64,000 nt of DNA, taken from NCBI RefSeq assembly GCF_019801965.1, contig NZ_JAHVIA010000005.1:372001-436000 (forward strand), written 5' to 3'. A program made the position numbers and the translations under genes. This document shows positions 1 through 50,611 of the stretch, in pieces. Every line of letters begins with the position of its first letter. The stretch's first letter is position 1. Below the pieces are notes generated by a model, which made no database searches, was not told where the DNA came from, and was given only the letters and a program-made list of their open reading frames with translations. The stretch comes from Salipiger bermudensis. GTDB taxonomy: Bacteria; Pseudomonadota; Alphaproteobacteria; Rhodobacterales; Rhodobacteraceae.

Positions 1-1035
1 CTCGAGAACGTCGATCTCGGCCTGCAGGGCCTCCTCGTCCTCCTCGGCGACATCGACCGCGAGCACGCTGTCCTCATAGGCGTCCTCGCTCTCCTCGAGC
101 TCCTTGCGATTCTTCTCGGGGATCTCCGCCTCGCCGGCCTCCGGCTTGTCCTTCGGGGCGCCCTGCCCGCCTTTCTGTTCGCCGCCATTGCCGCCGCCAC
201 CGCCGTTCGACGGGGCACCCGAATAGATCAGCGCGATCGCCGTGGCCGCGCCGCCGAGACCGTCTCCGAGCGGCTTCATGATCGCGCCGGTGAGCGCGAT
301 CGCAAAGGCGCGATCCTCGGTTTTCTCGAGCTTTTTCTCGAGCTTGTCATACTTGGTCTGGAGCTCGCCCAGGAGGGTACTCAGCTCTTCGGACAGCTTG
401 TCGGCCTTGGCTTTTCGCGCGCTCCACTCGAGACGCGCGTGTTCAAGCGCCTCCTGCGCCTTGATCTCGTCGCCCCGGGTCAGGTGGGCGGTCTCGAGCG
501 CGCTGTCGGCGCGCGTTGCGAGATCGTTGAAGGCGTCGGACAGGTCTTTCATCAGGCTCGCGAGGCGACCGGCGATGCTGGCACAGTCCGAGATGCCACC
601 GATGGCGAGATCCTCGTTGCCGCGAAACAAGTCTTCCATCGCCTCGTTGAGCGCCAGCGAGATCTCCTCGCCGCAACTGCGCAGCTCGCCCATCGCGGTC
701 GAGCATTGCTGACACAGAGAGCCGTAATCGGTCTGCATCCGGTTCAGCGAGGCGACAAGCGCGCCCTCCCGTTTCGGCACCGCGTTATAGGCGAGGTCGA
801 CGAGAAGCGTCAGACGCCCGAGGTTCTCGACCATCTTGTCGAGCTGGATCTGACCGAGCAGCTTCTTGCGGCGATCCAGCACCAGCATGTCATCCAGCGG
901 CAGAGATTGATCGAGACGGTAGCTGACGCTTTTCGTCTCGAACGTCGCATTCACGTCGTCGCTGCCATCGGCCGGCAGCCGCAGGCTGACCGCGACGCTC
1001 ACGCGCTTCTCGTATGTTGTCGCACTGTCCGACAT
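1..1035 (-). CDS. Hypothetical coiled-coil protein with hydrophobic segment (C-terminus cut by window edge)
   Basis: An open frame of 345 codons starts at ATG 1035 (GGGGAGAGAG lies just upstream) and runs off the left edge without a stop. I do not recognise the family. About the first 60 residues look globular. Residues about 70-235 are almost wholly helical and heptad-rich, ending in a Lys/Glu coiled coil (LEKKLEKTEDR). A hydrophobic stretch of roughly 30 residues with small amino acids follows (begins AFAIALTGAIMKPLG), then a Gly/Asn-rich linker and a very acidic tail rich in Glu and Asp. Long helices around a small-residue hydrophobic hairpin resemble alpha-helical pore-forming proteins, but also membrane-anchored scaffolds. 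No signal peptide is visible. The gene is separated from the next operon by about 420 bp and has its own promoter candidate. Confidence 0.75.
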   Translation of the reverse strand, partial: MSDSATTYEKRVSVAVSLRLPADGSDDVNATFETKSVSYRLDQSLPLDDMLVLDRRKKLLGQIQLDKMVENLGRLTLLVDLAYNAVPKREGALVASLNRMQTDYGSLCQQCSTAMGELRSCGEEISLALNEAMEDLFRGNEDLAIGGISDCASIAGRLASLMKDLSDAFNDLATRADSALETAHLTRGDEIKAQEALEHARLEWSARKAKADKLSEELSTLLGELQTKYDKLEKKLEKTEDRAFAIALTGAIMKPLGDGLGGAATAIALIYSGAPSNGGGGGNGGEQKGGQGAPKDKPEAGEAEIPEKNRKELEESEDAYEDSVLAVDVAEEDEEALQAEIDVLE

Positions 1036-1455
1036 GATCTCTCTCCCCTGAAAACGCATATCCCCGCCAAGATCGCATCGTGAAGAATGATCGAACCGTC
1101 CTGGCAAATTTATCATTTAGATACACGCAGAGTAGGAGGGGATCTCTTTAAAATCAACCTTTGGGATAATGACCATCAAGCACACCACCAAAGAGTGGGG
1201 CGGCGCTGCCCTTGGCCCGGCAAGGAAAACGCAAGCCCTGACCTTGGGGCCGTGGGCGATTTACGGTTCAGGAAACCTGTTCTACCGCACCTGTTGAGGG
1301 TGTCACGGCAACGTGCCGGTCCGGATCGTCTCCGGTCCCGCAAGCGCAAGGCTGCGGCGGCCTGCGAGGCCATGCTGGAGGCTGGATCGCGGCGGCCGCC
1401 GGACGGGCAGCGCGGGCCGCGACAGCCGATGCATCTTGGTCCCTCGCGGCCCCCG
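1036..1455. other. Intergenic region, AT-richer than its surroundings
   Basis: No gene is supported here. The stretch around 1085-1190 is clearly AT-richer than the flanks and carries the minus-strand promoter candidate for the coiled-coil gene. The remaining part, about 1200-1455, lies downstream of the amphi-Trp stop codon. It shows no clear U-tailed hairpin, and its open frames are shadows of GC-rich sequence. Confidence 0.5.
1129..1157 (-). promoter_or_regulatory. Candidate promoter of the coiled-coil gene
   Basis: On the minus strand TTGATT (1157-1152) and TACTCT (1134-1129) are separated by exactly 17 bp in an AT-rich patch about 95 bp upstream of the ATG at 1035. This fits a housekeeping sigma factor promoter and suggests the gene is transcribed separately from the operon to its right. 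Confidence 0.4.
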
Positions 1456-1728
1456 TCAGCTCTCGATGCGCGGCGTTCCCCTGGGGTGGGACGGCTCTGC
1501 CGGATCTGCCCAGGTGACACGCAGGCTGAACACGCAGCGTCCGTCTTCGCGCTCGGCCTTGATGCGCAGGTTCATCAGCTCACCGGTCTCGAGCACCAGC
1601 TCATCGTCATCGTCGCTCAGGGTCAGCTCGCCCTTCGAGAAGCCCTTCGACAAGGACGACAGCAGCGTCTTGACGGTCTTGGCGTCCTGCAGGGACTCGT
1701 GCCTGAAGCGGGTGGTCGAATTGCCCAT
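1456..1728 (-). CDS. amphi-Trp domain protein (last gene of GAK-like operon)
   Basis: Small protein of 90 residues. It fits the amphi-Trp family: an N-terminal stretch MGNSTTRFRHESLQDA, then a helix with the motif SKGFSKGELTLSDDDDE, then amphipathic beta strands with alternating polarity that end at the near-invariant Trp (W73 in SLRVTW). The start is ATG 1728 because GGAGG lies upstream at a normal distance; longer versions read into the metallophosphatase. It follows that gene by 17 bp. The family is small, of unknown function, and as I recall is named from its co-occurrence with the GAK kinase/ATP-grasp genes, which are present here. It could be a binding module or the target of the upstream enzymes (inference). 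Confidence 0.8.
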   Translation of the reverse strand: MGNSTTRFRHESLQDAKTVKTLLSSLSKGFSKGELTLSDDDDELVLETGELMNLRIKAEREDGRCVFSLRVTWADPAEPSHPRGTPRIES

Positions 1729-1745
1729 GCGGGAGGCCTCCGGAG

Positions 1746-3050
1746 CTAGACGAGACGGCCCGGCGCGAAGTGCTTTGCCGTCGGGTGGTCCCGGCTCAGA
1801 CCGATCACATCTCCGGAGGGGAAAATCAAGGTCGCGCCCGCACCGATGCCCTCGAGCCCCTCGAGCCGGCGCGAGGCGCGGTCGAGGGTGATGTCGCCCT
1901 CGAGATGCAGCAGACCGCGCTTGGCGCGCAGGTGCTGGCCGCTGTGATTGTTGACATGGCCCTGCACGATCATGTGGATGCCGTCGCGGTGCAGCAAGTC
2001 GACCCCGGCCCGCGTCAGCGCACAATCCGAGGCGCGGTACTTGGTCCGGACGAGATTGGCGAGCGGACCGAAATAGAACCCGAGCGAGGCGGTCTCGGCC
2101 TCGGTCCGGTATCGCGCGTTGACCTCGCGAGGCCCGCCCTGCACCAGCAGGCGGCACATCTCGTCGCAGAGCCCGGCATGGACGAAGAGCAGCGAGCCGC
2201 AGCGGGCGACCACCTCCATTTCGTCGTAGAACCAGGCATAGGCGCCGCCCGGCACGAAGAAGATGTCATGGCATTTCAGCACCGCCGCCAGCAGCGCCCG
2301 GTGCGACATCTCCACCTTGGCGCGCTCGCGATCGAACTTCTGCAGCTTCTCGTCGAGCTTGGTTATTTCCTTCCTGATCGTCCGCGCCGAGAGCTGGCCG
2401 CGCGCCGCCTTTGCAAAGCGCTTCGGCCAGCCTTTGGAGGGCAGCAGGCGGGCAGCGCAGGCGGCCTCCTCGGGCAGCGCGGCGAGGTCGTCATCTGTCA
2501 CGAAACGGTCGAAGACCTCGCGCAGCGCGGGCAGGATCTTGCGCCCCATGCGCACGAAGAGATGCTCGCGCAGGGCACTGCGCGGGCCGCGCACCGCATC
2601 GACCGCCATGCGCATGCGCAGATCGTGGTTTCCTGCCAGAAGGTCGAGCTGCGCCCCGGAGGCGCGCAGCGCCGCCAGCGCATCGAGCAGATCGAGATTG
2701 CTCGGCCCCTTGTCGAGGCTGTCGCCGCCGACGATAATCCGCGCGGCCTGGCCGAAGGCGGTGAGGCTGAGGCTATGGCCATCGCGGCGGATCACCCCGG
2801 CGGCCACCAGCGAGCGCAGGAAGCCCTCGGCATCGGCATGGGCGTCGGAGACGAAGATCACCGGCTGCTCGGGCCAGTGCCAGCCGCCGTGATCGCGGGC
2901 CCGCGCGAGGCACTCGGAGATCGGGCGCGGCGCCTTGCCGCCGAGCCAGGGCGACAGCGCGCGCGGCAGGTCGGCGAGATGGCCGTGGGGATCGTGGACC
3001 GGCGGCAGGAGCGCTGCGGCGGCCTCGGTCGACTGGCTGAGATGATCCAA
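1746..3050 (-). CDS. Metallophosphatase (calcineurin-like phosphoesterase)
   Basis: 434 residues. The two-metal phosphoesterase motifs appear in order: DAH at about residues 69-71 (FVSDAHAD), GDSLDKG at 109-115, GNHDLR at 140-145, then FVHAGL and QGHVNNH towards the C-terminus. An insertion rich in Lys/Arg/Glu helix (about 205-250) separates the metal-binding halves. This resembles Ser/Thr phosphatase or diadenosine tetraphosphatase-like enzymes, but the substrate cannot be read from sequence. It is cytoplasmic, with no signal peptide. It sits 30 bp after the histidine phosphatase and 17 bp before the amphi-Trp gene. The operon thus holds two predicted phosphatases alongside two predicted kinases or phosphoryl-using enzymes, which suggests reversible phosphorylation of some molecule (inference). 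Confidence 0.85.
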   Translation of the reverse strand: MDHLSQSTEAAAALLPPVHDPHGHLADLPRALSPWLGGKAPRPISECLARARDHGGWHWPEQPVIFVSDAHADAEGFLRSLVAAGVIRRDGHSLSLTAFGQAARIIVGGDSLDKGPSNLDLLDALAALRASGAQLDLLAGNHDLRMRMAVDAVRGPRSALREHLFVRMGRKILPALREVFDRFVTDDDLAALPEEAACAARLLPSKGWPKRFAKAARGQLSARTIRKEITKLDEKLQKFDRERAKVEMSHRALLAAVLKCHDIFFVPGGAYAWFYDEMEVVARCGSLLFVHAGLCDEMCRLLVQGGPREVNARYRTEAETASLGFYFGPLANLVRTKYRASDCALTRAGVDLLHRDGIHMIVQGHVNNHSGQHLRAKRGLLHLEGDITLDRASRRLEGLEGIGAGATLIFPSGDVIGLSRDHPTAKHFAPGRLV

Positions 3051-3080
3051 CGGGCGGCCCTTTCCTCGCGGTCCGGGGCG

Positions 3081-3785
3081 CTAGTCGATCGGGTCCTCTT
3101 TCGGGGGTCTGATCTTCCACGCTCCGGCGAAACGGGACCATCTATCATCGCCCCTGTAACAGAGAAGTAACGCGCGGGCGTGGAACATCGAGAGCCTGGG
3201 CAAATCTTCCCGTGCGAGGATGCCGAGATGATGGCAGCCATGCCGGAACGAGGCGCCGTGACCGACATGCAGCGTCAGCCGCCCTGCCCCCTCCTCGGCG
3301 CTCTGCCGCAGGTGCGCGGCGACCCGCGCCCCGGCCATCATCAGGCTCTCGGCGCCCTCGAGCGGCAGGCAGTAGTCGCTGTCGGATTTCCAGCCCTCGG
3401 GCGGCGCATCGAAGCGCGGATCGTCGCGCAGGATCTCCTCGATCTCGGCCACCGTGAGGTTGGCGGCAGAGCCGAGCCCGCGCTCGGCCAGCGCGCCGGT
3501 CTCGCGGATCTCGGTGATCTCGTGACCAAGGGCGCGGAGCCGCTCGACAATGACGGAGGCGGTCTGCCAGGCGCGCAGCTGGTGCGAGCAGTGGATCACC
3601 GGCGCAAGCACCAGCCCGTGCTCGGCGATCATCGCCGAAATCTCCTCGCCACAGGCGGCGGCCTGCGCGATGCCGTCCTCGGTCAGCGCATAGGGCTGGC
3701 GTGCCGAGGGCGCGCCCTTGCGCTGGTGGTAGGCGCCGTGGCGGATGATCGCGTGAAAGCTTCGGGACGTTGCGGGATCAGCCAT
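3081..3785 (-). CDS. Histidine phosphatase superfamily protein
   Basis: 234 residues from ATG 3785. The phosphoglycerate-mutase/SixA-like signature RHG (IIRHGAYH, near residue 15) provides the catalytic His. A second GHG (HVGHGASFRHG) late in the protein provides the other active-site His. LRAWQTASVI matches the region after the second core Arg, and GALAERGLGS holds a conserved acidic residue. Family members remove phosphate from phospho-proteins or small metabolites; the substrate is unknown. The start overlaps the end of the HprK-related kinase gene by 8 bp, so the two are probably translationally coupled. A longer start at 3818 is possible but lies inside the kinase frame. Kinase and His phosphatase being adjacent suggests they act on the same phosphorylated species (inference). 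Confidence 0.85.
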   Translation of the reverse strand: MADPATSRSFHAIIRHGAYHQRKGAPSARQPYALTEDGIAQAAACGEEISAMIAEHGLVLAPVIHCSHQLRAWQTASVIVERLRALGHEITEIRETGALAERGLGSAANLTVAEIEEILRDDPRFDAPPEGWKSDSDYCLPLEGAESLMMAGARVAAHLRQSAEEGAGRLTLHVGHGASFRHGCHHLGILAREDLPRLSMFHARALLLCYRGDDRWSRFAGAWKIRPPKEDPID

Positions 3786-4854
3786 CGAAGAGCCTGCCCC
3801 CCTCTTCTGCCAGCGCATCGAAATCGACCCGCCCCGAGACCTCGAAGACCCGCACGCCTTCGAGGGCTGCGAGATACGGCGCCGGCTCGGGCGAGGCGCC
3901 GTTGGGCTCGAAATGACCGTCGGGATGCTGGTAGAACGGCCCCGGGCTCTTCATGATCGCGCCGAGCAGGTCTGGCCGGCTGGGCAGATCGACCTGCGCC
4001 ACCCGCGTCGGCTCAGCCGCGTCGCGGGCCCAGTTCAGCACCCAGAAATCCGTGAGCGGCGCCTCGAAACAGACGCGGCCCGCGCCGTAGACCTCGCGCA
4101 CGATCAGGTCGTGCTTGTCTTCCAGATCCCAGAGCGCGGCGGCGGACATCGCCTCCAGCTCGGCGCGGCGCGCGGGCGAGAGCATCCCGTGCAGGCGCGG
4201 GTTGCCGAGGATGGTGCCGGGGTTGATGCGCGGCTGCTTGGGGATGCCCAAGCACTGCGCCGGGCGTCCGGCTTTCACCAGCACCCGGTCATTGGAAACG
4301 AAGGCGGTGCCGTCGAGATCCATCAACCGCAGGATCGAGGTCGACTTGCCGCCGCCCGACAGGCCCGAGATCGCCAGCGTCCTGCCGTCGCCGGTCACCG
4401 CCGCGGCGTGACAGAGCTGCCAGCCGTCGCGCTGACAGATGTTCAAAACCTGCGTGTTGATGAAGTTGATGACCGTGCTGACATTCTGCTCCAGCGACCC
4501 GAAGGCCACCGCGACGCTTGGTGCCTGCAGGAAGGTCACGCCGCTGCGGATCTTGCGGATCAGACGGCCGTCCGCGAGATCCTGCACCGCGTCCTTGCGG
4601 CCCGACTTGCCGGTCTCGCGCGCCCAATCCGACCACGCGGGCTCGGCGGCAAGCGCCTGCCCCGGCAGAAGATGCACCCGCGTCTCTCCGGGCGTGTCGC
4701 TCAGCGCGTCGTCGAAATAGGCGATCAGCTCGGCCCGCAGCGGCCCCGGACAAAGCACCGTGAGCCCCACCGGCCCCACCTTCAGGTGGAACGGCTCCGC
4801 CGCCTCCGCCGGCGCGAGATCGAGCTGCGCGAGAAAATCTGCGACCCCGCTCAT
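3778..4854 (-). CDS. HprK-related kinase B
   Basis: 358 residues. The C-terminal half has the HPr-kinase-like P-loop GLSGGGKS (164-171), followed by FVSNDRVLV, and preceded by CHAAAV (about 148-153), the position of the HprK active-site His region. The N-terminal half (1-130) is not the canonical HprK N-domain. This arrangement matches the family named HprK-related kinase B in NCBI annotations, of unknown substrate. No ptsH or other PTS gene is seen in the window, so phosphorylation of HPr is not supported. It overlaps the ATP-grasp gene by 4 bp (ATGA) and the histidine phosphatase by 8 bp. Confidence 0.85.
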   Translation of the reverse strand: MSGVADFLAQLDLAPAEAAEPFHLKVGPVGLTVLCPGPLRAELIAYFDDALSDTPGETRVHLLPGQALAAEPAWSDWARETGKSGRKDAVQDLADGRLIRKIRSGVTFLQAPSVAVAFGSLEQNVSTVINFINTQVLNICQRDGWQLCHAAAVTGDGRTLAISGLSGGGKSTSILRLMDLDGTAFVSNDRVLVKAGRPAQCLGIPKQPRINPGTILGNPRLHGMLSPARRAELEAMSAAALWDLEDKHDLIVREVYGAGRVCFEAPLTDFWVLNWARDAAEPTRVAQVDLPSRPDLLGAIMKSPGPFYQHPDGHFEPNGASPEPAPYLAALEGVRVFEVSGRVDFDALAEEGGRLFDG

Positions 4855-5732
4855 GCGCGCAGCTCCCCGAGCACGTGATCCGCCACCAGAGCGGCAGCGT
4901 CGATGCCGCAGCCCTCGAGCGCGCCGCGATAGCCGCCGAAGGCCGAGACCTCGAAGACGATGGGGCCCTCCGGGGTCAGCGCGATGTCGACGGTGGTGAA
5001 GGTCAGCCCGAACGGCGCCTGCGCGCGGCGGCCAAGCTCGATGAGATCGGCGTCGGGCTCGTAGGGCGCGTATTTGCCGCCCGAATGGATCGTGGTGTTC
5101 CAGCTGTCGGTCTGGCTCACCCGTGCATAGGTGCAGACATATTCGCCGCCGAGGAAGACCATACCGAGATCGTGGCCCGAGAGATCGGCCTTCTTCTGGA
5201 TATACATCACCGGGTTCGCGGCCTTGAAGGCGGCGATCTGCGCCTCGGCATCGGGCGCGCCAGCCTCGAGCAGCATCATGCCGCGCGCCTTGGTGGAGAA
5301 CAGCGGCTTGAACACCGCCGCGCCGTAGCGCTCGAGCGCGGCGCGCGCCGTGTCTTCGTCCTCGGTGATCGTGGTGGGCGGCATCGGCGCGCCGGCGGCG
5401 CTCAGCGTCACGGTACAGGCGAGCCGGTCCATCAGCCGCAGGATCGCGGTGGCGGGGCTGAAGACCCTGACGCCCTTCGCCTCGGCCACCCGCAGCATCT
5501 CGAGCCGGTCGAGCGCATCCGGGCTGTAGCTCTCGGCCACCTTCTTGACCACGAGCCCGTCGAGCGCGCAGAGATCAATGCCGTCGCACAGCAGCGTGCC
5601 GGCCTCGAGATCCAGCGTCACCCGCGCCATGTCGATCACCTGCCGATAGCCGGTGCGCGCCTCGAGCGCGTCGGCCAGAGCCTCGGTCGACCATTTTCCG
5701 GGGGTGCCGATCACCCCGATCTTGTCAGTCAC
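4851..5732 (-). CDS. ATP-grasp enzyme of the GAK type
   Basis: 293 residues with a RimK/ATP-grasp layout: an N-terminal pre-grasp domain (IGVIGTPGKWST), an ATP-binding Lys in VFKPLFSTKARGM (about residue 142), the hinge region MYIQKK, and a metal-binding strand IVFEVSAFGGYRG near the C-terminus. In many ATP-grasp ligases that last motif carries an Asn after the Glu. Here it reads EVSAFGG, a difference that may be family-specific. ATP-grasp enzymes join a carboxylate to an amine or thiol through an acyl-phosphate. The context with HprK-related kinase B matches the family I recall as GAK system ATP-grasp enzyme. Substrate is unknown. Confidence 0.83.
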   Translation of the reverse strand: MTDKIGVIGTPGKWSTEALADALEARTGYRQVIDMARVTLDLEAGTLLCDGIDLCALDGLVVKKVAESYSPDALDRLEMLRVAEAKGVRVFSPATAILRLMDRLACTVTLSAAGAPMPPTTITEDEDTARAALERYGAAVFKPLFSTKARGMMLLEAGAPDAEAQIAAFKAANPVMYIQKKADLSGHDLGMVFLGGEYVCTYARVSQTDSWNTTIHSGGKYAPYEPDADLIELGRRAQAPFGLTFTTVDIALTPEGPIVFEVSAFGGYRGALEGCGIDAAALVADHVLGELRA

Positions 5733-7359
5733 TGAACAGCATCCTTATGGGCAGCCTGAGCCGCGCCTCCTTGCCCTCGGGCACGGCCAGCGCGGCCTCC
5801 AGAATATAGCGGGCGCGCAGCATCATGCGGCGCGCGTGGTTCTTGTCGACGATGAAGCGCGTCGAGCTGGCGAAGCTCCGCGCCAGACCGAGCGCGAGCC
5901 GGTATTCGAAGCCCGGGTCCTTCTGGCGGCGGGCGAACTTGGCAGCCATGTCATGCATCGCGACGGCGACCGCGGCGATGCGCGCGCGGGTGCCGGCATC
6001 GAGCACCTGGAGCCGGTAGTTCGAGACCATGAAGACCGAGACGTCCTGCACGTAATCCATGTAGCGCGAGCGGTGCAGGTCGATGAAGCGGACCTTCTTC
6101 TCGCCGGCCTCGTAGATCACGTTGTCGAGGTTGAAATCGCCGTGGATATAGACCGAGAACGGCGCGCTCAGCGCCTCTTCGCGCTTCGCCGCGGCGGCGA
6201 CCAGCGCGTCGAAGCTCTCGATCTTCGTGCCATTGAGGCGCTGCGTGCCGGTCTGGAATTTCGGATGCAGGCGGTAGACATCGCCCATCCGCCTGCCGAG
6301 CTGCTCCATGGCGCGCATCTCTGCGGGCTCGGGCGTGAGCGTCTGGCGCCAGATGTCGCGCACGGTGCGGTGCAGCGCCGCCTGCGCCTCCGCCAGCTCA
6401 TCCGCGCTGCCGCCCAGCACGATGTCCTCGAAGGTCTTGCCGGCGAGGTGCTCGATCAGCAGCGCCGCGCTGTCGCCGCGCTTCTCGTAGGAGAGGATCT
6501 CGGGCGCGAGGCCGGGATAGACCGAGTTCCAGCTCTTTACGCCGACCCGCTCTTCCTTGACCTTGCGCCGGTCGCCATCCTTGAACACCGCATCCACCGC
6601 GCGGCCGTTGCCGTCGCGCATGGTGACGCTCGAGATGGCGCTGCCCGAGCGGGTCTCGGCGAGCGGCTGCAGCTTGATGGCGTCATCGTCCTTGGCGATA
6701 CCGGCCAGCACGCTGCGCAGGGTGAAGTAGCGCTCGAACTGAACGGTCTGTCCGATATTGATCGACAGGATCGCCTCGCTGATGGTCTCGAGCGCCTCGC
6801 CCATGCGGGTGATCTCGTTGAGGGTCAGCAGCCCGTGGGCGAGATCGTCGGCCTTTTTCGCGCCCTGCATGTCGCGCGTGTAGGTGCGGAAGAGCTGATC
6901 TTGGAAGGTGCCGAGCTCGGCCCGCATGGCGCCGATCTGCACCGCGAGGCGGCTGTCGCCGGACTGGCGCGCCTCCTGCGCCCGGGCCACCGCCTTGCGG
7001 ACCCGCCCCAGCGGCTTGAGATATGCGTCGGGGCGCAGGAGCGTCGGGCGCTCGATATGGTCCGCGTGCTGGACGGCGCGCCGGGCGAGCCGCGAGATCA
7101 GGTCGAGATTGCGGGCGATGGTGTCGACGCCCTGCAGGCGCAGGTCGCGCGCGGCGCTCGGCTTGCCGCGCATCATGCCCGCGAGGCAGGCCTTGCGTAC
7201 CCGCGAGGCGAGGTTCTGCGAATAGCCCGCCCGCGCGATCAGCGCCTCGGCGGTGTCGCGGCGCGGCGCCTCGAAATAGGCCAGCAGCCGCGCCAACTGG
7301 CCGTCGAGCTCGGCGAACAGGAAGGAGAGGTTCTCCTCGACGGCGTCAGGGCGTTTCAC
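5725..7359 (-). CDS. PhoU-like domain fused to APH-family kinase
   Basis: 544 residues, two modules. Residues about 30-210 form an all-helical bundle whose motifs (IARNLDLISRLARRAVQHAD, then NEITRMGEALETISEAILS) look like a PhoU domain. Residues about 235-510 form an aminoglycoside-phosphotransferase/choline-kinase fold: candidate ATP Lys in AVFKDGD (260), Brenner motif HGDFNLDNV (406-414) and a DFG-equivalent FIDLHRSRYMD (425-435). PhoU proteins bind metals and link phosphate transport to signalling. APH-fold enzymes phosphorylate small molecules or, less often, proteins. The fusion suggests a kinase gated by phosphate status (inference). It overlaps the NUDIX gene by 14 bp and the ATP-grasp gene by 8 bp, so it is firmly part of this operon. 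Confidence 0.82.
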   Translation of the reverse strand: MKRPDAVEENLSFLFAELDGQLARLLAYFEAPRRDTAEALIARAGYSQNLASRVRKACLAGMMRGKPSAARDLRLQGVDTIARNLDLISRLARRAVQHADHIERPTLLRPDAYLKPLGRVRKAVARAQEARQSGDSRLAVQIGAMRAELGTFQDQLFRTYTRDMQGAKKADDLAHGLLTLNEITRMGEALETISEAILSINIGQTVQFERYFTLRSVLAGIAKDDDAIKLQPLAETRSGSAISSVTMRDGNGRAVDAVFKDGDRRKVKEERVGVKSWNSVYPGLAPEILSYEKRGDSAALLIEHLAGKTFEDIVLGGSADELAEAQAALHRTVRDIWRQTLTPEPAEMRAMEQLGRRMGDVYRLHPKFQTGTQRLNGTKIESFDALVAAAAKREEALSAPFSVYIHGDFNLDNVIYEAGEKKVRFIDLHRSRYMDYVQDVSVFMVSNYRLQVLDAGTRARIAAVAVAMHDMAAKFARRQKDPGFEYRLALGLARSFASSTRFIVDKNHARRMMLRARYILEAALAVPEGKEARLRLPIRMLFSD

Positions 7360-7801
7360 AGCGCAATGCTCCCAGATAGACGGGGGCGGCGGGATCCGTC
7401 AGCGCCAGATCGTAGCGCGGCAGGAAGAGCGCGCCCTGCTCCAACGGGTCGACCCATTCGGTGGCCACCTGCCGCTTGTCGGGGCGGCTGCCGAGCCGGG
7501 GCGCATAGCTCTCCGGAACCGTGCCCGCGAAGAGGACCTCCGAGAGCTGCCGCGCGTGACCGTCGCGGAGCCGGAACACGTCGGCCACGTGCAGCACGCC
7601 GCCAAGTTCGGGCGAGACACCGATCTCCTCGACACATTCGCGCCGCGCGCAGTCGGCGATGGTCTCGCCGGGCTCCTGACGCCCACCGGGCAGCGTCAGG
7701 TAGCGCGGGCCGCCCTCGCGGCGCTTCACCTGCACCAGCACGCGCGGGCCCTTGCGGATCACGACGCGGACCGTCGGACGTATCGGTGTGTCTTCGAACA
7801 T
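7346..7801 (-). CDS. NUDIX hydrolase (first gene of GAK-like operon)
   Basis: 151 residues with a full Nudix box from G40 to V62 (GRQEPGE, then RECVEEIGV): G-x5-E-x7-RE-C-x-EE-x-G-V. The only departure is Cys at the first hydrophobic position. Family members hydrolyse nucleoside diphosphates linked to another group, or other pyrophosphates. Nothing in the sequence fixes the substrate. It heads the seven-gene operon that runs left to about 1456, and the gap between it and the TRAP gene (7802-8006) holds the TRAP terminator, so the operon promoter should lie in 7802-7933. Confidence 0.88.
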   Translation of the reverse strand: MFEDTPIRPTVRVVIRKGPRVLVQVKRREGGPRYLTLPGGRQEPGETIADCARRECVEEIGVSPELGGVLHVADVFRLRDGHARQLSEVLFAGTVPESYAPRLGSRPDKRQVATEWVDPLEQGALFLPRYDLALTDPAAPVYLGALRCETP

Positions 7802-7933
7802 GCCGCCTTATGCTTCGGGAACCTTGACAGTTTAAAGTCGGAACAACGCCCCTGCCGAGGGAAATCTTCGGCTCGCCGGGTGCACGTAAGCCGGGTGCCG
7901 GCGGAAAGGCGGCAGCCATCGGCGACGGCCGGC

Positions 7934-7968
7934 AATGAAAAAGCACGCCCCCCGTTCGGAGGACGTGC
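7934..7968 (-). terminator. Rho-independent terminator of the TAXI-TRAP operon
   Basis: Read on the minus strand, a GC-rich hairpin (arms GCACG/CGTGC at 7943-7968, continued by CC/GG pairs with two mismatches) is followed by TTTTT at 7942-7938. It lies about 40 bp after the stop codon of the fused TRAP permease and separates it from the GAK-like operon. Confidence 0.75.
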
Positions 7969-8006
7969 CTGTGTGTCGCGGTCCTGAGGTTGGAAAGAAT
8001 TCGGCC

Positions 8007-10241
8007 TCAGGCCGCCTCTTTCGCCGCGGTGCCCGGCCGGAGCAGGATGGCCAGCACGATCAGCGCGCCGATCGCGATCGCCACGAGGTGGGTCGAGATC
8101 AGCAGCAGCCCGGCCAGCGTGAGCGCCACCTTCTCCCAGAGCGCGAGATCGCGCCGGAACCAGCCGATATAGGCGGCCGAGAGCGCCAGCACGCCCATCA
8201 GCCCCGACAGCAGAGCGGTGATAAACTCGAGCCACGTGAAGTTCACGAAGAGCAGGCTCGGCGCGTAGATGAACATGAACGGCACCAGTGCCTTGCCCAT
8301 CGACAGCCGGAATGCGGTGGTGCCGGTGGTCATCGGCTCGGCCCGCGCAAGCCCCGCCGCCGCGTAGGCGGCCAGCGCCACCGGCGGCGTCACGTCGGCG
8401 AGCACCCCGAAGTAGAACACGAAGAAATGCGTCGCGATCAGCGGCACGTCGAACTCCATCAGCGCCGGCGCCGCGATCGAGGCGAGGATGATGTAGGTCG
8501 GCGTGGTCGGGATGCCGGCGCCCATGATGATGCAGGCGATGGCCACGAAGATCAGCCCGAAGAACAGCGCCAGACCGTTCTCGGAGGCGAGCCCGGTGAA
8601 ATCGAGCCCGACGACAAACCCCGCGAGGTCATGCGCCAGCTGCACCACCGCGGCCGAGAACTTGAAGCCGAGGCCGGTGAGCGTGGTCATGCCGAGCAGG
8701 AAGCCGACGCAGGCGCAGGCCGCGCCGATGGCCAGCGCGAACTTGGCGCCGTCCTCGAAGCCGCGCACCAGCCGCGGCGGGGTCAGCACCGTCGAGGTGT
8801 CCATCGTCGTGTTGCCGAGCGTCCGCATCAGCAGCGGCACGTAGCTGCAGGCGATGGTCAGCAGGATGCCCCAGAACGCCGCGAGGAAGGGGGTGTACTG
8901 CATCAGCAGCATCGCCACCATGACGCCCAGCGGCACGAAGAGATGCCACGACCGCGCCAGCACCGCGCCGAACTGCGGAATCTTGTCCTTCGACAGACCC
9001 TCGAGCCCCAGCTTCTTGGCCTCGAGATGCACCATCAGCAGGATCGCGATGTAGTGGAAGGCCGCCGGCACGATGGCGATCAGGATCAGCTCGTTGTAGG
9101 GTACGCCCAGCATCTCGGTCATCACGAAGGCCGAGGCCCCCATGATCGGCGGGGTGATCTGGCCGCCGCAGGAGGCCGAGGCCTCGACGGCACCCGAGAA
9201 GCGCCCGGAGAAGCCGGATTTCTTCATCAACGGAATGGTGAAGGCGCCGGTGGTGACGGTGTTGGCGATGGGCGAGCCCGAGATCATCCCGAAGAAGCCC
9301 GACGACACCACCGAGACCTTGGCCGAGCCGCCCGAGGCGCGGCCAGCGATGATCGTCGCGAGGTCGATGAAGAGCTGCCCGAGGCCGCTCATCTGCGCGA
9401 GGATGCCGAACAGCACGAAGTGAAACACGTAGGTCGCGACGACTCCGACCGCGACGCCGTAGATGCCCTCGGTGCCGACGAAGAGGTGGTTGATGATGCG
9501 GGTGATCGAGTAGCCGCGATGCGCCATGATGCCCGGCAGGTAGGGGCCGGCCAGCGCGTAGATCAGGCAGCCCACGCCGATCCATGCCAGCGTCGGGCCC
9601 ATGCTGCGGCGGGTCGCCTCGAGGGTCATCACGATGGCGATGAGGCCCATCATGTAGACCGGCTCCGGCGGATTGCCGACATTGTCGATGAAGATGTGCT
9701 GGAAGAAGATCGACAGATAGGCCGAGAAGCCGGCACCGGCGGCGGCGAAGACCCAGTCGCGCAGCGCGACCTTCTCGGGATCGGAGCCGCGCCGGTTGAA
9801 CGGCAGGGTCAGCGCGATCAGCCCCACCATCACCGCGATGAACACGGTCTTCAGCGTGCTCGACGGCAACGCCGTGGCGAGTCCGTAGAGCAGGTAGAGG
9901 TAGAAGCCCGCAAACAGCAGCGACTCGATCCAGAGCCCTGTGGTCGGCTGCGCCCGCTTGCGCGGGAATACCAGGAAGATCAGCCCCATCACGAAGCTGA
10001 GGTGGATGGTCCGGTGCATCACCTCGTTGAGCAGGCCGAAGCCCGCGGTGTAGACGTGGAACAGCGACAGCACCACCGAGGCCACCGTCACGAGGATCGC
10101 GGTCGGGCCGACGAGGTTGCGGAAATTGCTCTCGGAATCGTACTCGCGGACCAGCGCCTCCACCTCATCGGGGGTGAACTCGTGGTCTCCGTCGGCGGCG
10201 GTATGGCCGCGATTGTCCTTCGGGGGCAGCCCTTGGGTCAC
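8007..10241 (-). CDS. TRAP transporter fused permease (TAXI type)
   Basis: 744 residues and very hydrophobic, with about 17-18 predicted membrane segments. The small DctQ-like part (residues about 30-160) is fused to the large DctM-like part (from about 180), the usual form in TAXI-type TRAP systems. Motifs of the large subunit are visible: SGSPIANTVTTGAFTIPLMKK and CGGQITPPIMGASAF in one half, and AGIPTTPTYIILA in the other. It imports a solute with Na+ or H+ together with the TAXI binding protein encoded two genes upstream. It overlaps the DUF1850 gene by 4 bp. Substrate is unknown; TAXI systems often take up glutamate-like or other dicarboxylate solutes. Divergence from hutGF hints at a histidine-pathway compound (inference). 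Confidence 0.92.
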   Translation of the reverse strand: MTQGLPPKDNRGHTAADGDHEFTPDEVEALVREYDSESNFRNLVGPTAILVTVASVVLSLFHVYTAGFGLLNEVMHRTIHLSFVMGLIFLVFPRKRAQPTTGLWIESLLFAGFYLYLLYGLATALPSSTLKTVFIAVMVGLIALTLPFNRRGSDPEKVALRDWVFAAAGAGFSAYLSIFFQHIFIDNVGNPPEPVYMMGLIAIVMTLEATRRSMGPTLAWIGVGCLIYALAGPYLPGIMAHRGYSITRIINHLFVGTEGIYGVAVGVVATYVFHFVLFGILAQMSGLGQLFIDLATIIAGRASGGSAKVSVVSSGFFGMISGSPIANTVTTGAFTIPLMKKSGFSGRFSGAVEASASCGGQITPPIMGASAFVMTEMLGVPYNELILIAIVPAAFHYIAILLMVHLEAKKLGLEGLSKDKIPQFGAVLARSWHLFVPLGVMVAMLLMQYTPFLAAFWGILLTIACSYVPLLMRTLGNTTMDTSTVLTPPRLVRGFEDGAKFALAIGAACACVGFLLGMTTLTGLGFKFSAAVVQLAHDLAGFVVGLDFTGLASENGLALFFGLIFVAIACIIMGAGIPTTPTYIILASIAAPALMEFDVPLIATHFFVFYFGVLADVTPPVALAAYAAAGLARAEPMTTGTTAFRLSMGKALVPFMFIYAPSLLFVNFTWLEFITALLSGLMGVLALSAAYIGWFRRDLALWEKVALTLAGLLLISTHLVAIAIGALIVLAILLRPGTAAKEAA

Positions 10242-15076: not shown

Positions 15077-15117
15077 AGATCCCGGCACCCGGCCGCGCCG
15101 CCGCAAGCGACGTGAAA

Positions 15118-15157
15118 CTTTCACATTTCCTAAGTCCCACTGTCACATAACCCGCAT
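15118..15157 (+). promoter_or_regulatory. Pho-box-like repeats upstream of ugpB
   Basis: CTTTCAC (15118-15124) and CTGTCAC (15140-15146) are spaced by 22 bp, exactly two PhoB repeat periods of 11 bp. Weaker repeats sit between and after them (CCTAAGT at 15129, CCCGCAT at 15151). The site lies about 40-80 bp before the ugpB start. The ugp importer is a classic PhoB target, so control by phosphate starvation is likely; the match is imperfect. Confidence 0.5.
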
Positions 15158-15197
15158 AGCGGTCGCGCAACGAAAACCTCCGAGAAGGACACGGGAC

Positions 15198-16493
15198 ATG
15201 TTCAAGACGGCCTCGACCGCGATCACACTGGCGCTCACCGCCTCTACCGCCTACGCCGCAACCGACATCAGCTGGTGGCACGGCATGGGTGGCCGCAACG
15301 GCGAAGTGATCAACGAGATCGCCCAGCAGTTCAACGCAGCCCAGGACCAGTGCAACCTGACCCCGGTCTCGCGCGGCACCTACGAAGAGGCGCTGTCCTC
15401 GGGCATCGCGGCCTTCCGCTCGGGCGAACAGCCCAACATCCTGCAGGTGTTCGATGCGGGCGCCGCCACCATCATCGCCGCCAAGGGCGCGACCGTCCCG
15501 GCCGAAGACCTGATCACCAGCGCCGGTGAATCCTTCGACCGCGACGCCTTCATCGCCGGCGTGCGCAACTTCTACGCAGATGCCGACGGCAAGTTCATCG
15601 GCATGCCGTTCAACTCGTCGGCGCCGATCCTGTATTACAACATCGAGGCCTTCGAGAAGGCCGGTGTCGAGCCGCCGAAGACCTGGGAAGAGTTCGAGGA
15701 GATCGCCCCCGCCCTGCGCGATGCCGGCTACATCCCGATGACCGCGTCGCAGCTCACCTGGATGATGGTCGAGAACTTCAAGTCGCGGAACAACCAGCAG
15801 TTCGCCACCAACAACAACGGTTACGACGGTTTCGACGGCACCGAGATCCTGGTCAGCGACGACAACCAGAAAATGATGTTCGAGAAGCTCAAGGCCTGGG
15901 CCGACGAGGATCTCTACGGCTTCTACGGCGCCGGCTGGGCCGACAACCTCAAGCCCTTCGAAGAAGGCCAGGCGGCGATGTGGATCGGCTCCTCGGGCAG
16001 CTTCGGCGGCCTGCAGCAATCGGCCGAGTTCGACTTCGACGCCGTCTACATGCCCTACTGGGATGCCATCGAGGGCGCCGGCACCCAGAGCTTCATCGGC
16101 GGCGCGGCGCTCTTCGCCATGGCCGGCAAGCCCGAGGAAGAGAACGCCTGCACCGCGCAGTTCTTCACCTTCCTGACCTCGCCCGAGACCCAGTTCTTCT
16201 ACCACCGCAGCACCGGCTACGTGCCAATCACCGAGGCGGCCTACGAGCTGGCCAAGTCGGAAGGCTACTACGACGACCAGCCGGTGGCCGAGGTCGGCAT
16301 CCAGCAGCTGATGCTCGAGGGCGGCGAATGGTCCAAGGGCTACCGCATGGGCTTCTACCCGCAGATCCGCTCGGTGATGGAGCGCGAGTTCAACCGCATC
16401 TTCTCCGACGAGGTGTCGGTGGATGAGGCCTTCTCGATCATCGAGGAAGAGGGCAACGCCCTGCTCGCCCGCTTCGCCAAGACCGCGAACTGA
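15198..16493 (+). CDS. ugpB: Glycerol-3-phosphate ABC importer, binding protein
   Basis: 431 residues. Sec signal peptide (MFKTASTAITLALTASTAYA, cleavage before ATDISWW). The mature protein starts DISWWHGMGG, typical of UgpB, and contains SGIAAFRSGEQPNILQVFDAGAATI and GMPFNSSAPILYYN. It is periplasmic and captures sn-glycerol-3-phosphate or glycerophosphodiesters. AGAAGGA sits at a normal distance before the ATG. First gene of ugpBAEC plus a phosphodiesterase; followed by a strong hairpin. Confidence 0.93.
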   Translation: MFKTASTAITLALTASTAYAATDISWWHGMGGRNGEVINEIAQQFNAAQDQCNLTPVSRGTYEEALSSGIAAFRSGEQPNILQVFDAGAATIIAAKGATVPAEDLITSAGESFDRDAFIAGVRNFYADADGKFIGMPFNSSAPILYYNIEAFEKAGVEPPKTWEEFEEIAPALRDAGYIPMTASQLTWMMVENFKSRNNQQFATNNNGYDGFDGTEILVSDDNQKMMFEKLKAWADEDLYGFYGAGWADNLKPFEEGQAAMWIGSSGSFGGLQQSAEFDFDAVYMPYWDAIEGAGTQSFIGGAALFAMAGKPEEENACTAQFFTFLTSPETQFFYHRSTGYVPITEAAYELAKSEGYYDDQPVAEVGIQQLMLEGGEWSKGYRMGFYPQIRSVMEREFNRIFSDEVSVDEAFSIIEEEGNALLARFAKTAN

Positions 16494-44164: not shown

Positions 44165-44740
44165 TTGACCACGACAGCTCCGAGCGCAGCGCGTCTTGCC
44201 GACTGCGCGCCGAATTTCCGCCATGCCATCCGGCGGGACACCAAAACCGAGCACGAAGCGCTCGAAGCGCAATTCGCGCCGTTCATGGCCGCTCCCGAAC
44301 GTCACCTGTCCTGGTTCCTCGCCACCCAATACGCCGCGCTCGGCGCGCTGCTGGCCAGCCGCCCCGCGGAGGCCGAAGGACTGCTCTCGGGCCTGCTTCT
44401 GACCGAGCTCGTCGGCCGGCTGCGCTTCGATCTCGAGAACCGCGGCGTGATCGCGCCGGCTCTCGACCGCGCCGCCGAGAGCCTCGACACGGTGGCCATC
44501 GATTACCTCGTTCTGGGCTCGCGGCTTGGCACCGAGACCATGCGCCGCCAGCTCTTCGCCGATCACCAGCGCGAGGCGATCCCGCAATATTTCCTGATCG
44601 GCACGATGCCGGAGCTCTGGCAGCGCCATTGCGCCGAGCTCAACACGATCGAGGCGGGCTCGCCACGTGCCGCGAAGATCATTCAAGATACCAAGGCAGG
44701 CTTCGCGATCTTTGCCCGCGCGGCCCTCACCCAGGCATGA
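44165..44740 (+). CDS. bphO: Biliverdin-producing heme oxygenase (BphO-like)
   Basis: 191 residues from a TTG start (AAGG 10 bp upstream); no in-frame ATG or GTG fits. All-helical heme oxygenase fold with the proximal-His segment RRDTKTEHEALEAQF and a distal helix with VLGSRLGTETMRRQL. It opens heme to biliverdin, the chromophore of the phytochrome encoded 19 bp downstream. The start codon suggests low-level translation. Confidence 0.88.
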   Translation: MTTTAPSAARLADCAPNFRHAIRRDTKTEHEALEAQFAPFMAAPERHLSWFLATQYAALGALLASRPAEAEGLLSGLLLTELVGRLRFDLENRGVIAPALDRAAESLDTVAIDYLVLGSRLGTETMRRQLFADHQREAIPQYFLIGTMPELWQRHCAELNTIEAGSPRAAKIIQDTKAGFAIFARAALTQA

Positions 44741-44759
44741 AGATGAAAGATCCCATCAT

Positions 44760-47336
44760 ATGACGACAACGCCCCCGTTCCCTGCCCCGCAGCGGACCGT
44801 GGATCTCACCGACTGCGACCGCGAGCCCATCCACCAGCTTGGACGGGTCCAGTCCTATGGTGCATTGCTGGCGCTGTCGACGGATTGGATCGTCCAGCAC
44901 GCCTCCGAGAATCTCGAAGCGATCCTTGGCATTCCCACCGAGGCGGCGCTCGGCCGCCCGCTGCACGAGCTGATCGTCTCGGACGGGTTCGACCGCATCC
45001 GCCAGAACCTGCGCGTGGTCGAGCTGCAAGACGGGGTCCTGCGGCTGTTCAACGTCACCATGCAGGCCAGCGGCAAGGCGTTCGACGTTTCGGTGCACGG
45101 CTCCGGCCAGCACCTGATCATCGAGTTCGAACCAAAAATCGCCACCCGCGGCCGCGATGTCCTGGCCGAGGTCTACCCGCAGATCTCGTCTCTCAGCCGC
45201 AATCGCGACCTGCGCTCGCTGACCCGCGCCGCGGCGCGCGGGCTGCAGGGGCTCTGCGGCTTCGACAGCGTCATGGTCTACCAGTTCCAGCCCGACCAGT
45301 CGGGCAAGGTGGTGGCCGAGGTTCGCAAGGACGGGCAATCGAAATATGACGGGCTGATGTTCCCGGCCTCCGACATCCCGGTGCAGGCCCGCGCGCTCTA
45401 CAAGCGCTCGCTGCTGCGGCTGATCTCCGACGTCAACGATCCCGGCAGCCCGATCCTGCCCGGCACCACGCTCGACGGCCAGCCGCTCGACCTGTCGCTG
45501 GCGGTGACTCGCTCGGTCTCGCCGATCCACATCGAGTATCTCAAGAACATGGGGGTCGAGGCCTCGATGTCGGTCTCGATCATGAAGGATGGCGAGCTCT
45601 GGGGGCTGTTCGCCTGCCACCATCACAGCCCGCGCTACATCGAGTACGAGCGCCGCACCGCGCTCGAGATGTTTGCGCATATGTTCTCCTACGAGCTGTC
45701 GCGCTTCGAGGACCAGCAGCGTAAGGCCGTCGAGGAAGAGACCAGCCGCCTGCAGACCCTGCTGATGGGCCACATGGCCGATGGCCGCCGGGTGGCCGAC
45801 AGTCTGCTGTCGATCTCCGAGGACATCACCTCGGTGATACCGCATGACGGCGTCGTGCTGTTCGAGAACGATGAATTCCATGCCACCGGCACCGTGCCGA
45901 GCGAGGAAGAATTCCGCGGCATCGCCCGCTTCCTCGACCGCTCGATCGGGTCGGGCGTGTTCCACACCGACCATCTCGGCCGCTATCTCGAGGCCGCCCG
46001 CGAGCATCCCCATCGCGCCGCCGGCCTGATGGCGATCCCGATCTCCAAGCGCCCGCGCGACTACCTCGTGCTGTTCCGCAAGCAGATCCAGGAGACCGTC
46101 GCCTGGGCGGGCGACCCTACCAAGCCGGTGAGCATCGGCCCCAATGGCCACCGCCTCACCCCGCGCCAGAGTTTCGCGGTCTGGCAGGAGACGGTCGAGG
46201 GCCGCAGCCTGCCGTGGTCGCTCGAACAGGAACACGCCGCCAACAAGCTGCGCACCATCCTGCTCGAGGTCTATCTCAAGGTGCTCGACGCCTCCGATGC
46301 CGAGCGCAAGCGCGCGCAGGAGCAGCAGCAGTTGCTGATCTCGGAACTGAACCACCGGGTGCGCAACATTCTCAACCTGATGCGCGGGCTGTTGTCGCAG
46401 TCGCGCGCCTCGTCGGACACGCTCGAGGGCTTCACCGCCAATCTCGACGGCCGCATCCAGTCCCTGGCGCGGGCGCACGATCAGCTGACCTCCGAGCAAT
46501 GGGAGCCGACCTCGCTCAAGAGCCTGATCCAGTGCGAATTCGCGGCCTATGCCTCGGACAAGTCCGCGCGCGTGGTGATCACCGGCCCCGACGCGATGAT
46601 CGCCCCCAATGCCTACACCACGATGGCGCTGGTGCTGCACGAGATGGCCACCAACTCGATCAAGTACGGTGCGCTTTGCGACCAGAGCGGCACCGTCGAG
46701 GTGCAGCTCACCGAGGACAGCAGCGGCGGGCTGCTGATCGACTGGGCCGAACGCGGCGGCCCGCCGGTGACCCCGCCCAAGCGGCGCGGCTTTGGCACCA
46801 CGATCATCGAGGGCTCGATCCCGCACGAACTCAAGGGTGATGCCGAGGTGTCCTACAAGGTTACCGGGCTCGAGGCGCATTTCCGGCTGCCGCCGACGGT
46901 CATCTCACGCATCGTACCCGAAGAAAACGGTGCCGCCGCAGCGGCTCCTGCCCCCGCCAAGGCAACGGGCGCGCTCAGCCTCTCCGGTCAGGGCATGGTG
47001 CTCGAGGACTCGCTTATCATCGCCATGGATGCCGCCGCCTCGCTCGAGGATCTCGGCGCCTCCAAGGTCGAGATCCTGTCTTCCGTGCCGGAGGCCCTCC
47101 GCTGGCTCGACCAGAACCGCGTCGATTTCGCCATCCTCGATGTCAATCTCGGCGAGGAGCAATCGCTGCCGGTGGCCCGCCGCCTCCACGAAACCGGGGT
47201 GCCTTTCGTGCTGGCGACAGGCTATGGCTCGGCCGAGGAATTGATCGCCACCTACCCGCCCTGCACCATCGTGCAGAAGCCGTTTACCTCGACATCGCTG
47301 GAGGATGCCCTGCGGCAGGCCATGAAAATCGACTAA
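44760..47336 (+). CDS. bphP: Bacteriophytochrome HWE-type histidine kinase with C-terminal receiver
   Basis: 858 residues. PAS domain with the biliverdin-binding Cys at C19 (DLTDCDREPIHQLGRVQSYG), GAF domain with PASDIP (202-207) and SPIHIEYLKNMG, PHY domain with the tongue motif PRQSF (about 468-472), a linker coiled coil, then an HWE/HisKA_2 kinase with phospho-acceptor H532 in ELNHRVRNILNLM and an ATP-binding HEMATNSIKYGAL. The last 130 residues form a receiver domain with the phosphate-accepting Asp in FAILDVNLG. A red/far-red photoreceptor that can pass phosphate internally; hybrid HWE kinases often feed general-stress signalling. The receiver has LEDSLI where an acidic pair is expected. 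Confidence 0.93.
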   Translation: MTTTPPFPAPQRTVDLTDCDREPIHQLGRVQSYGALLALSTDWIVQHASENLEAILGIPTEAALGRPLHELIVSDGFDRIRQNLRVVELQDGVLRLFNVTMQASGKAFDVSVHGSGQHLIIEFEPKIATRGRDVLAEVYPQISSLSRNRDLRSLTRAAARGLQGLCGFDSVMVYQFQPDQSGKVVAEVRKDGQSKYDGLMFPASDIPVQARALYKRSLLRLISDVNDPGSPILPGTTLDGQPLDLSLAVTRSVSPIHIEYLKNMGVEASMSVSIMKDGELWGLFACHHHSPRYIEYERRTALEMFAHMFSYELSRFEDQQRKAVEEETSRLQTLLMGHMADGRRVADSLLSISEDITSVIPHDGVVLFENDEFHATGTVPSEEEFRGIARFLDRSIGSGVFHTDHLGRYLEAAREHPHRAAGLMAIPISKRPRDYLVLFRKQIQETVAWAGDPTKPVSIGPNGHRLTPRQSFAVWQETVEGRSLPWSLEQEHAANKLRTILLEVYLKVLDASDAERKRAQEQQQLLISELNHRVRNILNLMRGLLSQSRASSDTLEGFTANLDGRIQSLARAHDQLTSEQWEPTSLKSLIQCEFAAYASDKSARVVITGPDAMIAPNAYTTMALVLHEMATNSIKYGALCDQSGTVEVQLTEDSSGGLLIDWAERGGPPVTPPKRRGFGTTIIEGSIPHELKGDAEVSYKVTGLEAHFRLPPTVISRIVPEENGAAAAAPAPAKATGALSLSGQGMVLEDSLIIAMDAAASLEDLGASKVEILSSVPEALRWLDQNRVDFAILDVNLGEEQSLPVARRLHETGVPFVLATGYGSAEELIATYPPCTIVQKPFTSTSLEDALRQAMKID

Positions 47337-50448: not shown

Positions 50449-50611
50449 GGCCTCGCACCTGCCCGGTTTTTCATCCGTGCCCGAGGAGGCAAGACGTTTT
50501 CCGGGCCAATTCCTTCCCTATGGTCACCGGGTTCGCTAGCCCTTGGTCAAATTCCGCATAAATGTAGCCCGCTCCCAAGGCCCGCATGACCGATCCCAAG
50601 GACGCCTCCCT

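Follow-up and report, generated by a model that had tools for sequence, protein, structure and literature searches.

A GAK operon of Salipiger bermudensis, its regular members and a possible link to phosphate

The locus described here raises the question of what the GAK system, a set of genes that carry NCBI family names, does in the bacterial cell. In a stretch of 64,000 nucleotides of the Salipiger bermudensis genome (contig NZ_JAHVIA010000005.1; the whole stretch is called the window below), seven tightly packed genes of the minus strand span positions 1456-7801, as rendered by the list of open reading frames (ORFs) and by a computation of their spacing. Starting from the first gene they encode a NUDIX hydrolase, a kinase with a PhoU-like and an APH-type domain (PhoU-APH kinase), an ATP-grasp ligase (grasp_GAK), an HprK-related kinase B, a histidine phosphatase, a calcineurin-like metallophosphatase and a small amphi-Trp domain protein. 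A first-pass annotation had recognised this operon and connected it to the GAK family names, and both claims are borne out: the layout was confirmed, and a profile search placed the ligase, kinase B and the amphi-Trp protein above the NCBI cut-offs. That annotation had overlooked a CofD-like GAK protein encoded in the same window (49223-50404, plus strand). A literature search turned up no paper under the GAK names or the accessions of their models, although subscription journals lay mostly outside the search, and what was found on the parts or on the phosphate link contained nothing on the GAK system by title and start of the abstract. New in this analysis are a fuller membership of the system, a SixA-NUDIX fusion protein, the behaviour of the operon as a block and its association with PHO boxes.

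Members of the operon and their conservation

Conservation was followed in 80 named loci, which are the best 80 of at least 493 confirmed relatives and have a ligase identity of 62-91%, so that the counts describe close relatives; membership was scored with profiles built from the proteins of the window, and the 80 loci plus the window are the 81 sources referred to below. The amphi-Trp protein, kinase B and the ligase (this last by selection) are found in all 80 loci, the PhoU-APH kinase in 79, the histidine phosphatase and the metallophosphatase in 73 each and the NUDIX protein in 56. Order and strand are kept for the core six genes in 72 loci and for all seven in 50, so that the genes are not rarely neighbours and the co-occurrence that the first-pass annotation proposed to count holds. 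A search of 398 genomes from the phylum detected the ligase (E <= 1e-50) in 14 and kinase B (E <= 1e-20) in 16, with 14 genomes shared (Fisher 5e-24). No case of the ligase without kinase B was found among these 398 genomes, and in the two genomes that rendered kinase B only, which are 84-87% complete, the match lies near the end of a contig. In a set of 61 relatives, own genome counted, the ligase passes the cut-off in only 8 (6 of 20 within the genus), which indicates a patchy distribution. The genera that host the named loci are mostly marine, judged by name.

Beyond the members described here, no gene cluster occurs in more than 16 of the 81 sources, and no transporter is a fixed member. 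The PhoU-APH kinase, the histidine phosphatase, the metallophosphatase and the NUDIX protein are regular members of the GAK system though generically named; the ligase was also found on five plasmids, in three of which the operon was read, and three plasmid records label these proteins, the NUDIX protein where it is listed, in generic terms only. A query of viral contigs with the single ligase protein found no relative. All four named parts of the GAK system (TIGR04354, TIGR04355, TIGR04356 and TIGR04357) are present in the window above cut-off, in the order and company seen in other loci, with the differences that the CofD gene lies 41 kb away here and that the GAK names cover neither the extra regular members nor the PHO box. 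This is a true GAK locus and a typical one.

The operon is a discrete block set in different flanks in its relatives. A stretch of 28 kb of its own contig was compared with two chosen relatives that carry the operon and two that do not. Homology to the first operon-bearing relative covers 1456-7762 and to the second 1463-7852, the promoter and the PHO-like site included, and the flanks differ in both, except for 15109-15998, which is shared with the second. In the relatives without the operon the neighbouring TRAP gene is kept and homology stops at 8031-8035, just before the operon.

A further GAK member is a protein of ca. 330 amino acids (aa) in which a SixA-type phosphatase is joined to a NUDIX domain, present in 32 of the 80 loci. 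Its gene follows that of kinase B and precedes that of the histidine phosphatase in most gammaproteobacterial loci and in Thalassospira, and is divergent, on the other side of the operon, in some Rhodobacterales and Roseibium relatives. The copy of one locus, L101, matched in the PDB SixA (5.5e-11), Ap4A hydrolase (3.8e-7) and diphosphoinositol phosphohydrolases (from 2.2e-6), its NUDIX part being the one that matches the human diphosphoinositol phosphohydrolases and Ap4A hydrolase. Of the 80 loci, 73 have both the histidine phosphatase and the metallophosphatase, and 7 (L046, L055, L056, L057, L063, L072 and L073), in which the other operon genes were called, have neither; low-scoring phosphatase remnants were seen in L056, L057, L063 and L072. 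The fusion is found in 6 of the 7 loci without the phosphatases versus 26 of the 73 that have them (p 0.015, the loci being related). Two operons of the phylum sample, L138 and L156, weigh against a strict pairing of the two phosphatases: in both, a metallophosphatase stands without a called histidine phosphatase, L138 also being without the fusion, so the phosphatase pair is not inseparable.

PHO boxes upstream of GAK operons

Phosphate had entered the first-pass annotation only as a growth condition for an experiment, and a link to it now gains support from PHO boxes. The consensus used is what we take to be that of the PHO box. Scans of upstream regions took in 80 (consensus) or 77 (motif) of the 81 operons, those with too short an upstream being dropped, and the motif search used 66 non-redundant ones; control upstreams were derived from heuristic ORFs, some of whose starts may be false. 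At up to 3 mismatches, the consensus was detected in 13 of 80 operon upstreams versus 14 of 568 controls (Fisher 3e-6) and at ca. 2% in dinucleotide shuffles. Scans with other consensus sequences rendered NtrC and IHF near the shuffle level and FNR and LexA somewhat above it.

An unsupervised expectation-maximisation motif search, carried out with no prior, gave as its first motif TGCCGCCGCTGAAGAACA, which corresponds to codons in the divergently oriented CofD gene; with CofD then masked, the best motif was CtGTCAtgaAaCTGTCac, that is, the PHO box, with a log-likelihood of 148.9 (150 starts), as compared with 59-64 for three sets of shuffled sequences, each given 50 starts. With a threshold of 8 bits, and in sample, this motif marks 47 of the 77 operons, 42 of them in the direction of the operon, and a half-site spacing of 4 is found in 11 of the 77, as compared with 0-5 for eight other spacings. 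When the motif was trained on alphaproteobacterial operons only, it marked at 10 bits 7 of 14 gammaproteobacterial operons versus 13 of 115 controls (p 0.0013). Two operons outside the training set, L138 and L139, carry boxes with 2 and 1 mismatches, respectively, ca. 76 bp from the first gene. In the genome of the window, the PHO pattern with one mismatch allowed occurs 8 times versus once for a reversed control, and one occurrence, which served as positive control, precedes a PstS-like gene beside a PhoR-like gene (L179; by eye).

A number of results weigh against this association. The site of the window itself, CCGACTTTAAACTGTCAA (7824-7841, minus strand, 22 bp before the NUDIX start codon), consists of one good half-site with 4 of 14 consensus positions mismatched. 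The contrast obtained with the motif trained on alphaproteobacteria is weaker at lower thresholds (7/14 vs 24/115 at 8 bits, 8/14 vs 44/115 at 6 bits), and the motif trained on the 14 gammaproteobacterial operons missed the PHO box, marking at 10 bits 2 of 52 alphaproteobacterial operons versus 19 of 521 controls. Three of 300 permuted half-site patterns reach the real count of 11. No site at up to 3 mismatches was found in 9 of the 12 operons of the phylum sample (L142 repeats L091), the best sites of the ten operons other than L138 and L139 having 3-6 mismatches, nor in front of sixteen unlinked CofD genes, and of the three plasmid operons, two have a site at 3 mismatches, which in one case lies on the opposite strand, while the third is without a site even at 5. 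Seven of the 8 genomic occurrences are without a link to phosphate genes. Moreover, the loci share ancestry, and the p-values are too favourable for that reason.

Taken together, PHO boxes are supported for part of the GAK family and not for each member, several lineages being without one. PHO boxes are in use in marine bacteria, according to part of one article (PMC4796936). The GAK system shares with the Pho regulon a PhoU domain and, before part of its operons, the PHO box, with the differences that its PhoU domain is fused to a kinase and that the site of the window is a half-site. In a plasmid GAK operon of Qingshengfaniella (L181, 3842-3907), three PHO-like half-sites with a spacing of 11 bp were seen by eye in a 66-bp intergenic region.

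Kinases, ligase and hydrolases

Neighbouring genes of the operon overlap by 4-14 bp or are separated by 17-30 bp, with the exception of the histidine phosphatase start, and the catalytic residues examined across its enzymes are conserved with few or no exceptions. The PhoU-APH kinase (5725-7359, minus strand, 544 aa, overlapping the NUDIX gene by 14 bp) has a PhoU-like domain at ca. residues 6-200 and an APH-type kinase domain at ca. 260-455, which score above the Pfam cut-offs (PhoU, PF01895, 26.7 bits; APH, PF01636, 46.7 bits). Compared with solved structures, its family profile matches PhoU 4q25 (3e-10, residues 19-224), which makes the first domain a full PhoU, and the APH 4feu (8e-5), and residues H406, D408, N413 and D427 are kept in 80 of 80 sequences.

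The ligase grasp_GAK (4851-5732, minus strand, 293 aa, 8 bp overlap; TIGR04356 448 bits, cut-off 300) belongs to the same fold family as RimK, LysX and MptN and has their length; its profile matches the solved RimK 5zct (E 1.8e-19), and it scores under the cut-offs of the RimK, LysX and MptN models in NCBIfam. It differs from RimK in two motifs, EVN being changed to EVS (S263 in 81 of 81) and FRSN to a WNTT-like sequence (W211 and N212 in 81 of 81). These motifs correspond to the Mg site, where Asn is replaced by Ser, and to glutamate or substrate recognition; the glutamate and Mg residues of RimK were not found in grasp_GAK. It is a RimK-like ligase with altered Mg and substrate motifs.

Kinase B (3778-4854, minus strand, 358 aa, 4 bp overlap; TIGR04355 283 bits, cut-off 200) is a P-loop kinase of the superfamily of phosphoenolpyruvate carboxykinase (PEPCK) and HPr kinase/phosphorylase (HprK/P). 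Its SGGGKST P-loop and D189 are kept in 81 of 81 sequences. Its AlphaFold2 model (mean predicted local distance difference test, pLDDT, 94.3) has the P-loop kinase core of both enzymes: in Foldseek it matched PEPCK (1.0e-6) and HprK/P (1.3e-5), the PEPCK match being the better and longer one, and a sequence search with kinase B did not find HprK/P among the PDB entries. A single Asp stands where HprK has two. With a predicted fold nearer to PEPCK than to HPr kinase, protein phosphorylation cannot be assumed for this enzyme.

As for the hydrolases, the NUDIX protein (7346-7801, minus strand, 151 aa; PF00293 56.7 bits, above cut-off) has an intact Nudix box, whose seven residues are kept in 57 of 57 sequences. 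The histidine phosphatase, of branch 1 (3081-3818, minus strand, 245 aa; PF00300, His_Phos_1, 61 bits, above cut-off), keeps R26, H27, R82, E112 and H187 in 74 of 74; its longest frame overlaps kinase B by 41 bp, which is reduced to 8 bp with a possible start at Met12 (position 3785), a start that fits the overlaps given in the first-pass annotation. The metallophosphatase (1746-3050, minus strand, 434 aa, TTG start, 30 bp gap) shows PPP-type motifs by eye. The window copy reaches 17.3 bits with PF00149, below the cut-off of 21.5, the copies of four relatives reach 22.7-35.1 bits, and seven motif residues are invariant among the 74 sequences aligned. Its best NCBIfam matches, PdeM for the window copy (2.6e-5) and ApaH for a Thalassospira copy (4.7e-4), are both under cut-off, so a phosphoanhydride substrate, suggested mainly by the NUDIX parts, is a guess.

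Possible functions of the GAK system

The reading that we prefer, and put forward tentatively, is that the operon may be a block-like phosphoryl-transfer system that responds to phosphate starvation and both forms and degrades a phosphorylated conjugate, perhaps one with phosphoanhydride groups. We infer the following mechanism. At low phosphate, PhoB would activate the operon through the PHO box, a sequence signal present in part of the lineages and as a half-site here, and the PhoU domain would report phosphate status to the APH-type kinase fused to it. To judge from families and kept active sites, the APH-type and PEPCK/HprK-type kinases may phosphorylate, and the RimK-type enzyme conjugate, one common soluble substrate, giving a product with phosphoester, perhaps even phosphoanhydride, groups. 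Resetting of this product might fall to the pair of histidine phosphatase and metallophosphatase or to the SixA-NUDIX fusion, as suggested by the loss of the pair in 7 loci and by the distant kinship of the fusion to Ap4A and diphosphoinositol hydrolases. The amphi-Trp protein would be a small partner or target and the CofD/GlmR-like protein an optional accessory. The departure of the ligase from RimK in its Mg and substrate motifs counts against this mechanism. A cycle of synthesis, phosphorylation and dephosphorylation had already been proposed by the first-pass annotation; its components stand, kinases, hydrolases and a ligase that keep the residues tested, but their joint action on one metabolite or protein is a conjecture from sequence.

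It could also be the case, although we consider it unlikely, that the system modifies a protein, the RimK-like ligase extending and the HprK-like kinase phosphorylating the amphi-Trp protein, as a LysW-like carrier or an HPr-like target, and the phosphatases reversing this. RimK and LysX work on the tails of proteins or carriers, and the amphi-Trp protein (1456-1728, minus strand, 90 aa, last gene, after a 17 bp gap; TIGR04354 64.5 bits, cut-off 31) is found in 80 of 80 loci. It was detected (E <= 1e-5) in 21 of the 398 phylum genomes, 13 of which are kinase B genomes. The GAK-type protein has an F-x-H-x-S motif of its own, of which 80 of the 81 sources have the His and all 81 the Ser; in the phylum sample both residues are kept in 11 of 13 GAK-linked copies and in none of 8 from non-GAK genomes. 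An HPr-like phosphosite at His10 and Ser12, near-invariant in the near set, was nevertheless kept only as part of this alternative, since it is partly lost in L119 and L123, Ser in both and His in one; the two exceptions weaken it. Further points against protein modification are the variable C-terminal tail of the amphi-Trp protein (half of the alignment rows viewed), the precedence of PEPCK over HprK in the fold search with kinase B, and the AlphaFold2 model of the amphi-Trp protein (pLDDT 87; one helix and four strands), which found no match in the PDB at E <= 0.001 with Foldseek. The role of carrier or target given to this protein by the first-pass annotation thus draws weak support from the motif, weakened by its loss in 2 of 13 copies and by the lack of a fold match.

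Salvage of phosphorus, in which the enzymes would dismantle a phosphorylated metabolite at low phosphate and free phosphate, the kinases priming it, would agree with the PHO boxes, the three or four hydrolases and the mostly marine hosts. We regard it as improbable, given that there is no transporter among the fixed members, nor any other gene cluster in more than those 16 sources, that two kinases and a ligase that uses up ATP draw on phosphate, and that the PhoU domain suggests regulation.

Very doubtful, and drawn from analogy, is an extension of the reading that we prefer, by which GAK would signal phosphate status in bacteria with parts similar to those of eukaryotic PPIP5K/DIPP, though without common descent: under PhoB control, a PhoU-gated kinase, a PEPCK/HprK-type kinase and the ATP-grasp enzyme would build a new diffusible messenger with phosphoanhydride groups, the histidine phosphatase, the metallophosphatase and diphosphoinositol-type NUDIX enzymes would destroy it and the amphi-Trp protein would read it. 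PPIP5K has an ATP-grasp fold. Both systems combine an ATP-grasp enzyme, a histidine phosphatase and a DIPP-like NUDIX domain, found for GAK in the SixA-NUDIX fusion of the relatives, and the likeness is an analogy only: the GAK enzymes are separate chains, the ATP-grasp enzyme belongs with RimK and there is no evidence of inositol. A search for a PPIP5K/ITPK-type kinase with grasp_GAK rendered 11 PDB matches at E <= 0.001, all of them RimK/LysX-type or another ATP-grasp protein and none an ITPK or PPIP5K. The PPIP5K/DIPP inositol pyrophosphate system is tied to phosphate homeostasis, according to parts of two articles (PMC11836120, PMC11323792).

The family relations to CofD and MptN/CofF and the NCBI naming suggest that GAK might make a cofactor resembling F420 or a peptide, CofD acting as the transferase and the grasp enzyme ligating glutamate, a reading to which we give little credence. 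The CofD protein, CofD_rel_GAK (393 aa, detached from the operon; TIGR04357 508 bits, cut-off 340), also matches TIGR01826 (YvcK) with 99.9 bits, under cut-off, and PF01933 with 119 bits; at E <= 0.01 only TIGR04357 and TIGR01826 match it in NCBIfam, so that the broad Pfam CofD family is matched but the F420 CofD model is not. A search of control genomes for CofD_rel_GAK found seven bacteria and no archaeon. The gene is divergent beside the operon in 44 of the 80 loci and occurs in 8 of 8 operon-bearing relatives (own genome counted) versus 9 of 53 without the ligase (p 8e-6), and in the phylum sample (E <= 1e-50) in 5 of 14 ligase-bearing genomes. Genomes with the ligase and without CofD, and vice versa, rule it out as a core part, and the altered substrate motifs of the ligase are a further point against cofactor biosynthesis. 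CofD_rel_GAK is an accessory, and by its sequence it resembles YvcK/GlmR; Listeria GlmR (YvcK) makes UDP-GlcNAc from UTP and GlcNAc-1P, according to part of one article (PMC10128056). In the window, a serine-hydrolase gene (50543-52174; beta-lactamase-like, by eye) adjoins CofD, the same neighbour being seen in L168, and in the ligase-less relatives L159, L162, L163, L164 and L165 a DUF2252-like gene (kinase-like, by eye) is convergent to it. Hardly credible is an envelope or carbon control module like that of Bacillus, where NUDIX and Crh are found in the neighbourhood of GlmR, with the CofD/GlmR-like, NUDIX and HprK-like parts tuning UDP-sugar flux: it would fit the relation of CofD_rel_GAK to YvcK and the activity of Listeria GlmR, but CofD is dispensable and often unlinked.

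Regarding the surroundings of the operon, a terminator-like hairpin of 13 pairs (7941-7970, minus strand) lies between the upstream TRAP-transporter gene, named by eye, and the operon, and 8 terminator-like sites were counted in 1100-8200 versus a mean of 2.7 in shuffles. No RNA element was found at Rfam gathering scores. The seven operon proteins rendered with the PADLOC defence models only a weak match of the NUDIX protein to PDC-S07 (27 bits), so an anti-phage defence system is without PADLOC support. The gene downstream of the operon (1-1116, minus strand) has a very weak ZorA match (13.5 bits), and a bacteriophytochrome-like sensor kinase with a receiver domain was seen by eye at 44667-47336.

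GAK has been a system of family names for which we found no paper, and the fuller list of its parts together with the PHO box make this orphan gene set approachable by experiment. The fusion of a PhoU domain to a kinase points concretely to a way in which an enzyme could sense phosphate status, and the function of GAK would concern many marine bacteria, as judged by the genera named.

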